This document shows, piece by piece, positions 1-5,036 of a stretch of 5,036 bases of DNA; positions within the stretch are counted from its first letter, which is position 1; the number at the start of each line of letters is the position of its first letter. The notes below the pieces were generated by a model. That model was not told the origin of the DNA, ran no database searches, and saw only the letters and a program-made list of their open reading frames with translations. The translations under genes were made by a program, and so were the position numbers. This DNA comes from Candidatus Hermodarchaeota archaeon (GTDB taxonomy: Archaea > Asgardarchaeota > Hermodarchaeia > Hermodarchaeales > Hermodarchaeaceae): contig JAEOSA010000157.1 in assembly GCA_016840595.1 (NCBI GenBank), forward strand, positions 1 to 5,036. The letters run 5' to 3'.

Positions 1-225
1 CCAGGAATTGCCACCCTTCTGAAAGATGTTCCTGGAATCATCCATGTTCTTGAGCGTGGTGAGCTAATCAAAGTGTTTAGTGAAGTACCATTAATGGAAA
101 TGGCTGAAAGGGTTTCACGAGCATTCCAAGGACAGGATATCGGTATTAAGAGCATCAAGCCTAAAATCAGTGTTGACATGACCGATTACTTCATTCTCAT
201 TACGGGACGACAATTAGAGGTGTAA
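1..225 (+). CDS. ABC transporter ATP-binding protein, C-terminal fragment (5' end outside window)
   Basis: Frame 1 is open from the first base to TAA at 223-225, giving 74 residues; the start lies upstream of the window. The fragment begins PGIATLLKDVPGI and ends DYFILITGRQLEV. This matches the tail seen in many ABC-2 type (NatA/CcmA-like) ATPases: a segment around 'L..VPGV..V' followed by a last strand and helix of the form 'P(S/T)L(E/D)DVF..LTGR.L'. Here that ending is degenerate (ISVDMTDYF instead of PSLEDVF) but the LTGR-like ITGR is clear. The Walker A, signature and Walker B motifs would lie upstream, so they cannot be checked. The protein would hydrolyse ATP on the cytoplasmic side of a transporter. 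It ends 7 bases before the next gene, which implies one transcript, and its last codons hold that gene's ribosome-binding site. The family call rests only on this tail; the substrate is unknown. Confidence 0.72.
   Translation, partial: PGIATLLKDVPGIIHVLERGELIKVFSEVPLMEMAERVSRAFQGQDIGIKSIKPKISVDMTDYFILITGRQLEV
217..222 (+). promoter_or_regulatory. Ribosome-binding site for the 233 TTG start
   Basis: GAGGTG, complementary to the archaeal/bacterial 16S rRNA 3' end, lies inside the last codons of the upstream ATPase gene and 10 bases before TTG at 233-235. It favours this TTG over the in-frame ATG at 257, whose only purine run (AAGGA) overlaps or abuts the ATG itself. It also suggests translational coupling with the upstream gene. 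Confidence 0.6.
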
Positions 226-232
226 CACAAGT

Positions 233-328
233 TTGCGGCGACAGACAACGAAAGGAATGATTCAGAGACAAAGATATCTGGTCCTTTTACTCACAACCGT
301 CATACTTCTGATTCCCCTAATTCAAGCT
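233..328 (+). other. Signal peptide of the S8-like protein
   Basis: Residues 1-32 have a basic n-region (R2, R3, K7, R12, R14), a hydrophobic core LVLLLTTVILLIPLI at 16-30, and a plausible signal peptidase I site after I-Q-A (29-32, next residue D33). There is no lipobox cysteine, so a lipoprotein is not indicated. With the C-terminal TM helix this sets the topology: N-terminal domains outside, tail inside. The exact cleavage point is inferred. Confidence 0.75.
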
Positions 329-3300
329 GACCTTGCCTCCATAAACATTACAAACACTTTCCTGGGCAATGATGAGACGGAGTCGAAACTCTCGAAACCG
401 TTACTCGAACGCATTGAATCAAGTAGCGATCCGGATCTCCCCATTGACATTATTGCAAGCTTATCTGAATCCACAGATTGGAGAGCAGCTCAAAGAGCGA
501 TTCTTCAGAAAGCTGCGTTGACCAATATCAAGATTTATCATAATATTGTGCACGCCATTTCTCTGAGAACCACGGTGGGTGCGTTACACCAATTAGCTGG
601 TCTTCCTGAAATTCGAAAATTATGGACAGACATTGGATTCCATCTCGATACCAGTGATCAATCTATTCAACACAGTCTGATGGTTGTGCCTAATGGTTAT
701 CTTCACCCCCGTGAGATAATTGGAGTCAATCCTCTTTATGATCAGGGATTCAACGGTTCGCACACGGTCGTTTCCATCATAGATACCGGTGTTGATGCGA
801 CTCATCCTGACCTTGATGATTTGGATGACAATGAAACCACTAATGACCCCAAAGTCCTAGCTCAAGTCTCCTTTGCTGAAGGCGATCCCTTCCCCTTTGA
901 TTTGAATGGTCATGGAACCTATTGTGCCGGATTAGTCGCTGGAACGGGAGCCGCTTCCCAAGGGAACTACACAGGAATTGCACCCGGAGCTCAACTTATC
1001 AGCGCCAAAGTTGTACTTGGAGATGGCACAAGCTATTCATCATGGGTTATCCGAGGAATAGAATGGAGCATCACAACAGGAGCAGATATCATTCTTCTTC
1101 CTTTCTCAACCTTGGGAATGCCCGGTGACCCACTTTCAGAAGCCGTTCGCAGAGCCTCAGAACAGGGTGTCCTTGTTGTCACGGCTGCTGGAGATCGTGG
1201 ACCAAATCACATGACAATTATGTCCCCTGGTGAATCGTTGGCAGCCCTTACAGTTGGAGCATTTGATTATGAAACGAACTCAGTCCCTGATTTCAGCAGT
1301 CGTGGTCCAACCTTTGATATGCGCACCAAACCTGATCTGGTCGCACCAGGTGTCGACATTATATCCTCATCTCTTCACAACATCCTACCCACGGATATTG
1401 GAAACATTTCAATTTCCCCCGAAGACATTGATTTTGACTTATTTGGATTTGGACGGTTTGGCACAGCCATTAACGAAAATTACACGATAGCTAGTACTAC
1501 CGCTGCTTCCGCAGCCCTTACTGCAGGATCAGCTTGTCTACTACTCCAGGGAAGTCAATACGCAACACCAGAGTGCATATCAATAGTTATGCGAAAGGGA
1601 GCAAATCCACAATTTAATGAACCGAACATTGAGGGCGCAGGCTTATTGGATGCCGCTACAGCACACATCGAGCTTGATACCCTCTTTGATCCCTTCCCCT
1701 CATCTTTCCGTGCACGAAGTGTGGGTCTGGGCTTACCTTACTATGGTATACTGGTGAGTGAGTCCTCGTCAGAAAATGTCACGTTACTTATGAGCGGGTA
1801 TACGACGACAATGGCAGCTATTGCTTCTAGTCCAGTGACAAACATGTCGATGTTCCATATGCTAATGGGTATGTTCTATCTAGCAGTCGGAAACAGTAGT
1901 GTGCTTCCGTTTGCATTCCTTAATGTTGAACAAGAATTTCATTGGACAGGGCTACCTTATGGAAATTATGTTCGGGCCACAGGAATATTGTCTTATAATG
2001 ATCTCTTGATAATCCCTCGTATTGAGTCTTGGCAGATAACAACACCTCCGGCGACTAATGCGTTTCGTATTTCCTTTTTCTTCGTGAACATTGGTACAGA
2101 GAATGTGACAGATATTCGATTGTACAGTTTGTGGAATTTTGACCTATTCTCAGGCGCTAACGATACATCAACTCAACAAGGTTTCTTCAACAGTTCATCA
2201 CAGCTATTTTACGTGCATGCCGATACCCTTCCTCCGAATGAAACTTCTCGAGTAGATCAGTACATTGGAGTTAACGCCTCAACACCATTTTCCAGTTTTG
2301 AGGTTGGACCATATTCGGACGTTAGTGATCGGTTACAAAACGAGACACTAAACGGGAATAGCATTTATGACAATGATGATGGAGTGGGGTTTGGTACACA
2401 GTGGCAATTGGGGGATTTGCCAACGGGTGCAAATTTCTTACAGACTTCAATGACTTTAGGTTTTGGTCGGAATTTCTCAGCCCTTCTTCATGGTATAAAC
2501 GAAACCGAATATGCCACGATGCCCACTACGCTGACGGATCTTTGTATGATTCGAGTTTCTTCACCCAGAACTGGAATGCCCGATGCGACTTATCATACGT
2601 CTGTCATTGTGTTGAATATCGGTGATGAGGGGGTGGATTCCATTGCTGCATTCTTTACCAATCAGTCGCAACCCATGGGTGGGGCGATTTTTGCTCGTTA
2701 CTTCCAATTGGGCATCTTTGAACCCTTCCAGTTCCAACGACTTGTCGTCGATTGGGTTCCTGAAGTTACAGACATCTATTTTGCTGGATGGATCGTTTCT
2801 CCAACCCTAGACTTTGACCTTATACTTCCCACCATTCCAACGGATTTGTATGCGCTTGATAACTTTGTCTTTCGGGATGTTTTCATTAGTACTCCTCCGA
2901 CGATGCGGGTTCTAATTCCCTCCTTTTTACCGTATAGACCCATGATGCTCCGATTTCCCAATGATTATGCGATATACAATTTCACTTTGCTCACTTCAAC
3001 TCCCATTTCCCGCCTCTCATTGAGCATAACAGAATATCATGATCAAGGTTTACGCACACCAATGAATCGAAACGTAACGAATTGGACAAATCCTCCCACG
3101 ATAACACCTACAGACATCTATGATGTAACCATTGGAACACAATTCCAAATCCTATTCTTTATCCCCACCTTTATCGAATCTGGACCCTACTACGGGAATC
3201 TTGTAATCAGCGCTTCCGATGGGTGGGAACAAATCCTGCCCTTCATAATCAATGTGACTTATCCACAAGGTGTAATTCTTTTTGATTCAATTCATAACCA

Positions 3301-4627
3301 AGGATTGGATTTCTCGAATCTTGAAGACCTCGATTTCTCAGATTTTGACCTCGATGAACTACTTTCGCTTCTGGATGAAATCGGTGACAGTTTACTAACA
3401 GGCTATTCAAGGCTTCGAGAATTGTTTGCAGAAGCCCAGCTAAACTTAGCTGAAATTCCCCTTATCTTAGAACTCAATTCCACCACTCTTTCCCTCTTTG
3501 ACGGGTTAATCCTCTGCGACCCTGAAACAGGATTTACACAAAAAGAAACCTTAGCTGTGTCAGAGTTTATTGATGACGGATATAAGGTTCTAATTCTCGC
3601 CGACCATCCAAATTCATCCAATCATACAACTTTGAACCAGATTTTAGCAAATTATAGTATCCAAATCGGTGGCACTGTAACTTCTCTGAACACAACCGAG
3701 TTACACCCCTCACGCCCCTTCACCACTGAGGTGAATATCATCTCTACAGAAGAAGGTACGCTACTCACTGAGACGGGGTCTTCCGAGATCTTTGCCTGGG
3801 TTAATGGCTCAGCCTTTGGCGTTTATCAAAATGAAAGTCAGAAGGAACTCTTTGTCCTCGGTTGTTCTTCCATTTTTTCGAATCGTCTTTTGTTGAATTT
3901 AGAAAATCTGAAGTTTGCGAACCAAACAATACATTATCTGTTTCGCAATACAATGAGCCTCACTATTCGTCCGACTGGGGGGAATGGGTCAACATTTACT
4001 ATTGGTAACGATGCGGGATTTGTGATTGACGCAATAGATCACACAGGACAGGGCGTTGAGAATCTTACTATGTATTGCGTCTATACTTTTTCGAATGGAA
4101 CCCAGCAGTTTTTCATTGCCTTCGAAGTCTTAGGTGGACGATATGGCACTTTTCTATTCGCGAATTGGACAGGGTTAGATGAATCAGTAAATACAACACA
4201 AACCTTCTCAATCATCGTCTTCTCATTACCGGGAACCTATGCAAGCGCTTCAGCGTTCATGTATTTCTACTATGAACCCGCTCCTGAGATACCTACTCCG
4301 CCTCCAGAACCCAATTACCTATTCATTATGGCACTTCAGATCGCTCTTTTCACGATATTAGCCATACTGATTGTTGGAGGATATTTCTTAAACCAATATC
4401 GGCGTCGACGACGAATGCGAACACCACCACTGGATGAGGTAATGATTGAAAATATTGACAATACTCTGAATACCACTCATGCTCTTATTCGTGAGATGGA
4501 ATGGACTTTGACTGATCGGCGACTGGACCGTATCGAAAAACTTCGAATTGCATCAGGTGAGCCTGCGAATCGATTAGAAGATATGCTCAAACGGCTTCGC
4601 GAACTTGCCAAGGAAACAGGGGTTTGA
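233..4627 (+). CDS. Membrane-anchored subtilisin-like (S8) pseudoprotease with GldG/IFT52-like domain
   Basis: This 1464-residue protein is predicted to be a type I surface protein with its bulk outside the cell. In order: signal peptide (1-32); I9-like propeptide region (about 66-140); S8 domain (about 165-480); beta-rich region with two CARDB-like segments (about 485-890); beta-sandwich (about 890-1010); GldG/IFT52-like domain (1013-1245); Ig-like region (about 1245-1345); proline-rich linker; TM helix (about 1362-1386); RRRRRMR (1390-1396) and a 68-residue helical tail. The S8 Asp (D184) and His (H227) are kept, but the Ser position is A424 and the oxyanion Asn position is D321, so peptide hydrolysis is unlikely. 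The frame is uninterrupted, arguing against a decaying gene. The TTG start is chosen for its GAGGTG site and for the basic n-region it gives the signal peptide; ATG 257 would also leave a usable one. Neighbouring ABC ATPases suggest a transporter partner (inference). At 1464 residues it is several times longer than a simple subtilisin. Confidence 0.9.
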   Translation: MRRQTTKGMIQRQRYLVLLLTTVILLIPLIQADLASINITNTFLGNDETESKLSKPLLERIESSSDPDLPIDIIASLSESTDWRAAQRAILQKAALTNIKIYHNIVHAISLRTTVGALHQLAGLPEIRKLWTDIGFHLDTSDQSIQHSLMVVPNGYLHPREIIGVNPLYDQGFNGSHTVVSIIDTGVDATHPDLDDLDDNETTNDPKVLAQVSFAEGDPFPFDLNGHGTYCAGLVAGTGAASQGNYTGIAPGAQLISAKVVLGDGTSYSSWVIRGIEWSITTGADIILLPFSTLGMPGDPLSEAVRRASEQGVLVVTAAGDRGPNHMTIMSPGESLAALTVGAFDYETNSVPDFSSRGPTFDMRTKPDLVAPGVDIISSSLHNILPTDIGNISISPEDIDFDLFGFGRFGTAINENYTIASTTAASAALTAGSACLLLQGSQYATPECISIVMRKGANPQFNEPNIEGAGLLDAATAHIELDTLFDPFPSSFRARSVGLGLPYYGILVSESSSENVTLLMSGYTTTMAAIASSPVTNMSMFHMLMGMFYLAVGNSSVLPFAFLNVEQEFHWTGLPYGNYVRATGILSYNDLLIIPRIESWQITTPPATNAFRISFFFVNIGTENVTDIRLYSLWNFDLFSGANDTSTQQGFFNSSSQLFYVHADTLPPNETSRVDQYIGVNASTPFSSFEVGPYSDVSDRLQNETLNGNSIYDNDDGVGFGTQWQLGDLPTGANFLQTSMTLGFGRNFSALLHGINETEYATMPTTLTDLCMIRVSSPRTGMPDATYHTSVIVLNIGDEGVDSIAAFFTNQSQPMGGAIFARYFQLGIFEPFQFQRLVVDWVPEVTDIYFAGWIVSPTLDFDLILPTIPTDLYALDNFVFRDVFISTPPTMRVLIPSFLPYRPMMLRFPNDYAIYNFTLLTSTPISRLSLSITEYHDQGLRTPMNRNVTNWTNPPTITPTDIYDVTIGTQFQILFFIPTFIESGPYYGNLVISASDGWEQILPFIINVTYPQGVILFDSIHNQGLDFSNLEDLDFSDFDLDELLSLLDEIGDSLLTGYSRLRELFAEAQLNLAEIPLILELNSTTLSLFDGLILCDPETGFTQKETLAVSEFIDDGYKVLILADHPNSSNHTTLNQILANYSIQIGGTVTSLNTTELHPSRPFTTEVNIISTEEGTLLTETGSSEIFAWVNGSAFGVYQNESQKELFVLGCSSIFSNRLLLNLENLKFANQTIHYLFRNTMSLTIRPTGGNGSTFTIGNDAGFVIDAIDHTGQGVENLTMYCVYTFSNGTQQFFIAFEVLGGRYGTFLFANWTGLDESVNTTQTFSIIVFSLPGTYASASAFMYFYYEPAPEIPTPPPEPNYLFIMALQIALFTILAILIVGGYFLNQYRRRRRMRTPPLDEVMIENIDNTLNTTHALIREMEWTLTDRRLDRIEKLRIASGEPANRLEDMLKRLRELAKETGV
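428..652 (+). other. I9-like propeptide region of the S8-like protein
   Basis: Residues about 66-140 fit the peptidase S8 propeptide pattern: a hydrophobic strand (IDIIASL), a helix of about 18 residues (WRAAQRAILQKA), strands around IKIYHNIVHAISLRT, a helix ending in L-A-G-L, then PEIRKLWTD, matching the usual 'L..LP.V..I..D' end. In active family members this segment acts as chaperone and inhibitor. Its retention here, where the catalytic serine is missing, suggests a folding role or autoinhibition-like contact only. Confidence 0.6.
725..1672 (+). other. Subtilisin (S8) fold with substituted active site
   Basis: Residues about 165-480. VVSIIDTGVDATHPDL carries the Asp motif (D184) and NGHGTYCAGLVAG the His motif (H227). 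GIAPGAQLISAKVV, FSSRGP (354-359) and KPDLVAPGVDI (366-376) are standard S8 landmarks, and GAGLLDA near 468-474 closes the domain. The oxyanion-hole segment reads AAGDRGP instead of AAGNxGP, with D321 in place of Asn. The serine motif reads YTIASTTAASAALTAG (417-432) and aligns without gaps to the usual YTI.SGTSMA.PHVAG, putting Ala (A424, codon 1502-1504 GCT) at the nucleophile and also losing the G of GTS and the following Pro. About 40 residues (377-416) separate the APG strand from the serine motif. The fold call is firm; loss of activity is inferred from the substitutions. Confidence 0.9.
3269..3967 (+). other. GldG/IFT52-like (GATase1-like) domain
   Basis: Residues 1013-1245. A first strand with H-N, GVILFDSIHN (1013-1022), is followed later by FDGLILCDPETGFTQKE (about 1089-1105), VSEFIDDGYKVLILAD (to D1124), ELFVLGCSSIFSN (to N1217) and ENLKFANQTIHYL (1224-1236). 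This is the Rossmann-like pattern of the ABC accessory proteins GldG/IFT52 and related domains: 'lifD..HN', 'yD.li..P...f...E...i..fv..GG.lli..D', '.v.vlGdssi', 'DN..f..n...'. No GATase catalytic Cys-His-Glu triad is evident, so a binding role is likely. An acidic insertion (1025-1050) follows the first strand. The assignment is by pattern recognition, without a profile search. Confidence 0.6.
4316..4390 (+). other. C-terminal transmembrane helix and stop-transfer signal
   Basis: Residues 1362-1386 form an uncharged stretch, YLFIMALQIALFTILAILIV followed by GGYFL. It is preceded by a proline-rich linker (PAPEIPTPPPEP) and followed at 1390-1396 by RRRRRMR, which by the positive-inside rule anchors the tail in the cytoplasm. 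The remaining 68 residues are charged and predicted helical (for example RLEDMLKRLRELAKE near the end). Confidence 0.88.
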
Positions 4628-4632
4628 TTAGG

Positions 4633-5036
4633 ATGAGTGAAGACAAGTCACCAATAATCATTGAATTCGATCAAACCTCTGTGAAGATTGGTCGTACGCA
4701 GATTCTACATGACATTAGTTTCTATGCTCGCGAGCGTGAGATTTTAGGGATTATTGGAGCGTCAGGATCTGGGAAGACAACCTGTTTGCGTGTAATGACA
4801 GCCCAATTGAAACCGTTCCGAGGGGGAGCACGTATTGCAGGGCATGATGTGAAGCGCGAAGCCTCAACTATCCATTATGCAACTGGGTATGTCCCACAAC
4901 ATGAAGACCAGAGTTTGTATTTTCCATTTTCTGGGCTTGAAAATGCCCATTTTTTCGGTCGAATGTATGGAATTACTGGTAAGGAAATTAAACGCCGGGC
5001 AATCGAACTCCTTACAATTTTGGGCTTTGATGAGGA
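4633..5036 (+). CDS. ABC transporter ATP-binding protein, N-terminal part (3' end outside window)
   Basis: ATG at 4633-4635 opens a frame that runs to the window edge, 134 complete codons. Walker A is GASGSGKT at residues 42-49, preceded by an A-loop region strand and 'ILHDISFYARERE.LGIIG', typical of an ABC nucleotide-binding domain. The Q-loop is GYVPQHEDQSLY with Q89, then FPFSGLENAHFFGRMYG, in which the LTV.ENL.F.A.LYG pattern of ABC-2 type exporters (NatA, DrrA and ABCG-like groups) is recognisable. Signature, Walker B and H-loop lie beyond the window. The gene starts 5 bases after the stop of the S8-like gene, implying co-transcription. GGGGT at 4619-4623, 9 bases upstream, is a weak ribosome-binding site; a TTG at 4624 in the same frame is an alternative start. 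It would power transport on the cytoplasmic side; substrate and direction are not shown, though export is more likely than import. Confidence 0.93.
   Translation, partial: MSEDKSPIIIEFDQTSVKIGRTQILHDISFYAREREILGIIGASGSGKTTCLRVMTAQLKPFRGGARIAGHDVKREASTIHYATGYVPQHEDQSLYFPFSGLENAHFFGRMYGITGKEIKRRAIELLTILGFDE

Follow-up and report, generated by a model that had tools for sequence, protein, structure and literature searches.

A conserved Asgard pseudoprotease encoded in an ABC-2 operon has the domain plan of site-1 protease with a large insert

Is a long archaeal gene with the domain order of eukaryotic site-1 protease (MBTPS1/SKI-1/S1P) a prokaryotic relative of that enzyme, and what might its product do? 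The question was raised by a Hermodarchaeota contig, of which a stretch of 5,036 nucleotides (the window) was analysed. All genes described lie on its forward strand. Positions 1..225 encode the C-terminal end of a first ABC ATPase (ATPase 1), which reads as the C-terminus of the product of locus L001, 8323–9969; this complete homologue has 548 amino acids and matches Pfam ABC_tran at 3.1e-27. The core gene (257..4627, from ATG 257 to TGA 4627) encodes P0001, a predicted single-pass membrane protein of 1,456 amino acids combining a pseudo-subtilase with a GIFT domain. A second ABC ATPase (ATPase 2) starts with the ATG at 4633 and continues past the window end (4633..5036; ABC_tran 3.8e-13). 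Rfam models gave no match within the window at gathering scores, and Pfam and NCBIfam by themselves did not resolve the C-terminus of P0001.

P0001 begins with a signal segment, whose hydropathy exceeds 1.6 in windows of 19 residues that begin at residues 4–14, and a propeptide-like N-domain (together 257..706, residues 1–150). The S8 domain follows (704..1681, residues 150–475; Pfam 1.8e-43). Its closest solved relative by sequence is Tk-SP (3afg; 4e-77 with the family profile), with which the profile aligns from position 54, starting at chain residue 32; Tk-SP and other archaeal subtilases are active proteases that are not known to carry a GIFT domain. A beta-supersandwich (1739..2530, residues ~495–758) resembles a domain of glucodextranase, GH94 phosphorylases and cyclic glucan synthase. 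The Ig-like beta-sandwich that precedes the GIFT domain (2903..3256, residues ~883–1000) occupies the place of the third (P-like) domain of S1P and matched the same region of the intact Asgard S8-GIFT proteins described below with an hhalign probability of 96%. The GIFT domain itself (3257..3955, residues ~1001–1233) is separated from the transmembrane helix by a further beta-sandwich, seen in the AlphaFold secondary structure (3959..4276, residues ~1235–1340); alignments to OST48 with VIA-align extended past the GIFT domain to the end of the P0001 model. The single transmembrane helix lies near the C-terminus (4316..4384, residues ~1354–1376; mean hydropathy 2.86 over 19 residues) and is followed by a predicted cytoplasmic tail (4400..4624), delimited by alignment and made up of RRRRR and about 70 further residues.

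The sequence strings quoted in the first-pass annotation are present in P0001, and the S1P-like order it had read from them held for the S8 domain, the Ig-like sandwich, the GIFT domain and the transmembrane helix, the order seen in S1P, but not for the extra sandwich between the GIFT domain and the helix. Its large extra region corresponds to an insert of about 410 amino acids that includes the supersandwich, and the basic tail it described as short does open with five arginines but is 75 amino acids long. Insert, extra sandwich and long tail set P0001 apart from S1P, a human Golgi enzyme, as do its dead active site, its ABC operon setting and an S8 clade away from MBTPS1.

Homologues were sought among 5.8 billion proteins (E ≤ 0.001), with 7,987 candidates scored and 100 matches returned. 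The 62 relatives P0002–P0063 covered 56–100% of the query and the remaining 38 matches 9–30%. All 16 relatives that carry an organism name are from Asgard archaea (Hermod-, Hod-, Thor-, Helarchaeota or Promethearchaeota). Scanning of genome contigs returned 53 loci: 50 of the P0001 family, 48 of them titled with an Asgard group and two as 'archaeon' only, and three short S8 matches, one each in a Streptomyces, a Bacteroidales and a Chloroflexi genome. Relatives with as little as 29–32% identity still keep the long frame together with the S8 domain, the transmembrane helix and the domains between them, so P0001 is maintained rather than decaying. The Helarchaeota relatives P0060–P0062 (P0061 being named Helarchaeota) lack the propeptide-like N-domain and have almost no tail.

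The neighbourhood of the core gene is also conserved. In 46 of 50 family loci, spanning genomes labelled Hermod-, Thor- and Loki-, ATPase 1 shares the strand of the core gene and lies no more than two ORFs upstream of it; a permease preceded ATPase 1 in all 39 readable loci, and in 29 of the 35 loci with room for it ATPase 2 followed the core gene in the same orientation. The operon thus comprises a single ABC-2 permease along with two distinct ABC ATPases (in L010, ABC2_membrane_3 at 1.5e-24 and ABC_tran at 6.5e-27 and 4.2e-26). Exceptions were L015, in which ABC genes are absent next to the core gene, L013 and L014, with ABC genes on the opposite strand, and L039, with the permease still upstream and an ATPase on the opposite strand; in L012 and L050 no ATPase 2 adjoins the core gene. 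A match of P0001 to Pfam ABC_transp_aux (PF09822), which we take to be the GldG family, reached 24.1 bits, below the cut-off of 34.7. Like P0001, GldG is a membrane-anchored GIFT-type protein encoded with an ATPase and an ABC-2 permease (GldA, GldF); it differs from P0001, which has a whole pseudo-subtilase and a supersandwich, is accompanied by two ATPases and scores under the PF09822 cut-off. According to the available text of PMC9127263, GldG is predicted to span the membrane and makes up an ABC transporter together with GldA. From the operon and this precedent, we infer that P0001 serves an ABC-2 transporter as its membrane-anchored partner outside the cytoplasm and derives from an S8-sandwich-GIFT protease that has lost catalysis, and we give this reading a probability of roughly two in three.

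A structural surface protein in an incidental ABC setting would agree with an ectodomain made mostly of beta-sandwiches, with the first rows of a Foldseek search of the P0001 model (chains of the ciliary central apparatus, a mastigoneme and alpha-2-macroglobulin) and with L015. We consider it unlikely: the upstream ATPase 1 recurs across Hermod-, Thor- and Loki-labelled genomes, three of the four loci without it still have ABC genes adjoining the core gene, and GldG offers a precedent for a GIFT-type transporter subunit.

Several features of the ATPases were noted in passing. ATPase 1 (L001 8323–9969; L010 8155–9858) has an N-terminal extension of about 250 amino acids that matches the archaeal regulator TrmB (Regulator_TrmB, 26.9 bits, above the Pfam cut-off of 22.2) and may be a sugar-sensing part. 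Taken with the glucodextranase-type sandwich, this one domain match hints at a link of the P0001 system to sugars. ATPase 2 is fused in frame with a very long protein in 11 loci (L009, L017, L018, L023, L027, L031, L033, L034, L041, L045 and L048), in frames of 908 (cut by a contig end) to 3,029 amino acids; in the L045 fusion Pfam recognises the ATPase part only. In L010, ATPase 2 and the giant protein are separate overlapping ORFs, the giant having TSP3 repeats and beta-propeller matches.

The proposal that the active site is dead was borne out. P0001 retains the catalytic aspartate (D176, nt 782–784) and histidine (H219, nt 911–913), and has D313 (nt 1193–1195) instead of the oxyanion asparagine and A416 (nt 1502–1504) instead of the serine, a set abbreviated DHDA. 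Aligning 63 members gave 59 rows with all four catalytic positions readable, none of which carried the full DHNS set. The serine position is occupied by alanine in 40, threonine in 17 and serine in two. P0029 (DHDS) keeps the aspartate, histidine and serine with aspartate for the oxyanion asparagine, and P0063 (DRNS) keeps serine and asparagine with arginine for the histidine, so some family members may differ. A nucleophile provided by threonine or another residue would keep the domain an enzyme and would be in line with the threonines and with retention of the catalytic aspartate in 58/59 and histidine in 57/59 readable rows; it is decidedly unlikely given the prevalent alanine, the aspartate that replaces the oxyanion asparagine in 58/59 rows, the replacement (judged by eye) of the proline that follows the serine motif of active subtilases, and the Helarchaeota members without a propeptide. 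Judged by its residues, the family S8 domain is a catalytically dead protease fold, conserved as a family.

An intact version of the same architecture was found when animal MBTPS1 was searched in 227 Asgard genomes, with up to three candidates scored per genome. Matches at 1e-12 occurred in 200 genomes and pointed to proteins in which a GIFT domain follows the S8 domain. A GIFT profile of 13 rows including P0001 matched in 225 of the 227 genomes, often several times per genome, while the Pfam model PF23090 (MBTPS1_4th) at E ≤ 1e-6 matched in only two; the S8-GIFT group is therefore nearly hidden by the low sensitivity of this single model. Sixty regions from 57 genomes were selected for strong GIFT matches and long frames, and one S8 match from the MBTPS1 search was added. 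In 54 of these regions, S8 and GIFT domains lay within one ORF. Of these ORFs, 51 (from 50 genomes) had all four catalytic residues, two were of the dead kind of P0001 and one was without the Asp stretch. The first-pass annotation had suggested a survey of archaea for this architecture with an intact serine; among Asgard genomes, it is thus present in 50 of the 57 examined, which were selected for strong GIFT matches. The S8-to-GIFT spacing had a median of 113 residues (103–191), compared with 139 in MBTPS1 by the same models, and a hydrophobic segment followed the GIFT domain in 41 of the 51 intact ORFs. In one genome (G005), a member of the P0001 family (L028) occurs together with an intact protein (L176, DHNS). 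An AlphaFold model of the intact protein P0222 had a mean pLDDT of 43.9 (9 rows) and was not used.

The combination was not seen in bacterial controls. In 794 genomes from the phyla to which a Chloroflexi, a Bacteroidales and a Streptomyces genome belong, a search with MBTPS1 gave matches at 1e-20 in 57; none of 44 bacterial S8 ORFs (43 loci returned) had a GIFT domain, in loci extending about 1.5 kb beyond the match where the contig allowed, enough for a GIFT domain at the Asgard spacing. In reverse, a profile of sandwich and GIFT matched in 36 of 279 genomes from the phyla of the Chloroflexi and Bacteroidales genomes, and none of the 41 bacterial loci had an S8 domain. The intact-site architecture, widespread in the sampled Asgard genomes, would be the likeliest prokaryotic counterpart of eukaryotic S1P.

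The best MBTPS1 match in the 227 genomes (118.2 bits) was at L140, 1285–4470 on the minus strand, which is the same protein as L058. Its GIFT region reads 'YQMRNPLHWHS' where S1P has 'LRMKNDPLDWNGD', a likeness seen by eye that may be due to chance. Thirteen Asgard S8-GIFT proteins (L124, L125, L130, L136, L137, L139, L140, L142, L143, L145–L147 and L149) bear two CxxCG-type, zinc-ribbon-like motifs in their C-terminal tails; the tail of L140 has a Pfam zinc-ribbon match. Two candidate signs of S1P affinity were dropped. The S8 score did not discriminate, as the best bacterial S8 domain reached 129.5 bits with MBTPS1, above the best Asgard match. The SW pair common to the S8 domains of P0001 (SSWVIRG) and S1P (TSWFLDA) was set aside because subtilisin BPN' also carries it, as YSWIING.

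By fold, the Ig-like sandwich and GIFT domain of P0001 aligned with VIA-align to residues 481–873 of the S1P structures 8uw8/9csd, although the GIFT domain fitted IFT52 better than S1P. In the Foldseek search, large chains of several domains came first among the PDB rows, at low TM-scores; IFT52 and OST chains stood at ranks 15–17, and S1P was not among the best 50 rows and appeared with the VIA-align rerun. Ciliary IFT52, with its N-terminal GIFT domain, and OST48 of the ER differ from P0001 in having no S8 domain. P0001 had no Pfam match to MBTP1_N (PF23001), the propeptide model, or to MBTPS1_3rd (PF23094) or MBTPS1_4th; P0102 matched PF23001 at 1.5e-35, and P0060–P0062, the three Helarchaeota proteins among seven relatives scanned, exceeded the PF23090 cut-off. 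The family's Ig-like sandwich matched MBTPS1 weakly (hhalign 8.5%).

Across the 227 Asgard genomes PF23094 gave nothing over its cut-off, with sub-cut-off matches in two Asgard genomes and, among the controls, Bacillus subtilis; an HMM of the MBTPS1 third domain matched none of 211 proteins (best 4.3 bits, E 0.33). In hhalign, the third domain matched the Asgard sandwich weakly (30.9%; 0.6% for a control of 15 post-S8 regions), and sandwich and GIFT jointly matched between MBTPS1 and Asgard proteins at 99.3% (E 1.6e-20, 293 columns). The link of the third domain to Asgard proteins thus derives from its place, the weak match and the joint match. The same 15 control regions matched the Asgard sandwich at 78.9%, so this sandwich is not special to GIFT proteins. 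For the GIFT domain, profile comparison with MBTPS1 scored 119 for the Asgard S8-GIFT proteins (53 rows; three subsamples of 41 each gave 116.5–122.0), compared with 89 for a set of 41 bacterial GIFT regions; the P0001 family reached 66.5 (28 rows, a depth unmatched to the 53). By contrast, the best matches of an MBTPS1 GIFT HMM among the 211 proteins were Helarchaeota members of the P0001 family (26.2 bits). When 46 of the 54 Asgard S8-GIFT regions were scanned with single models, 27 matched IFT52_GIFT, 23 ABC_transp_aux and 13 MBTPS1_4th. Some IFT52_GIFT matches were as strong as 1.8e-15, and the Asgard GIFT matches may also be relevant to where IFT52 and OST48 came from.

Three S8 trees were constructed, two quick (98 and 139 rows) and one careful (68 rows). 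Their MBTPS1 rows, like the organism-named ones of the whole collection, were all animal, and their archaeal rows were all Asgard; bacterial rows had been picked for MBTPS1 likeness and Asgard rows for MBTPS1 likeness or GIFT, the Asgard S8-GIFT proteins being more densely sampled than bacterial S8 domains. The P0001 family formed a single clade in each tree (support 100, 99 and 100/99; the tree label COREx wrongly included, through a motif rule, L168, which has all four catalytic residues). The expected position beside MBTPS1 was found in none of the three, and a constraint uniting the family with MBTPS1 was rejected (p-AU 0.022; animal MBTPS1, with Asgard as the only archaea). It is therefore very improbable that the family is the immediate prokaryotic sister group of MBTPS1 with a lost active site, in spite of the common domain order, the S1P structures aligning over both downstream domains and the Helarchaeota matches to the MBTPS1 GIFT HMM and MBTPS1_4th, and the GIFT domain of MBTPS1 also scored nearer to the intact Asgard proteins than to the family at the depths given above. 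The idea of a prokaryotic S1P relative keeps the shared plan and the fold alignment and loses the place beside MBTPS1 in the S8 trees: as these trees have it, the family is a cousin of S1P, not its sister.

In all three trees, MBTPS1 fell among the intact Asgard S8-GIFT proteins (SH-aLRT 94 and 92; 93/94 in the careful tree) and apart from the bacterial rows. It sat on a long branch and its sister was unstable, being L058 with L081 in the quick trees (83, 80) and L066 in the careful tree (95/86). Placing MBTPS1 outside the Asgard rows, with 38 Asgard-side rows held together (P0068 among them, the Asgard rows L071 and L074 left out), was not rejected (p-AU 0.176). Nesting of MBTPS1 within Asgard S8-GIFT proteins is thus favoured, not proven, and an Asgard origin of S1P is a well-motivated hypothesis rather than a result. 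The broader scenario has S1P inherited from the archaeal host, with MBTPS1 and the P0001 family as branches of one Asgard S8-sandwich-GIFT radiation, the latter without catalysis and turned into a subunit of a two-ATPase ABC transporter; we see it as evenly poised.

CspC and CspA are not known to have a GIFT domain or to be encoded in an ABC operon. According to the available part of PMC6636752, these soluble bacterial subtilisin-like pseudoproteases act in spore germination and, like P0001, have an S8 fold without catalysis, which they use for signalling. As partner of an ABC-2 transporter, P0001 would dock with its GIFT end next to the permease, in line with the presumed role of GldG in the GldA/GldF transporter. 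The dead protease cleft and the supersandwich might hold or sense a cargo such as a peptide, a glycan or a glycosylated surface polymer, and ATP use by the two ATPases would drive export or a conformational relay.

The available text of PMC11231238 states that SREBP, the sterol regulators, are activated by site-1 protease, which also acts in other signalling pathways. On the basis of a phylogeny of subtilases that included just two species of archaea, the SKI-1-like SBT7 group was supposed to be eukaryotic in origin (PMC6713707, available part), and in the available part of PMC9549277 site-1 protease occurs in the reference list only and the word Asgard is absent. Literature searches, with most subscription journals outside their range, found no work joining site-1 protease with Asgard archaea and, for MBTPS1 and archaea, no title on Asgard S1P-like proteins. 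P0001, a pseudoprotease conserved in Asgard archaea and encoded in an ABC-2 operon, combines the S1P domain plan with a large insert. Asgard proteins of this plan with an intact site make an archaeal root of S1P testable, and the P0001 family represents a second fate of the plan, a dead protease apparently wired into an ABC transporter.
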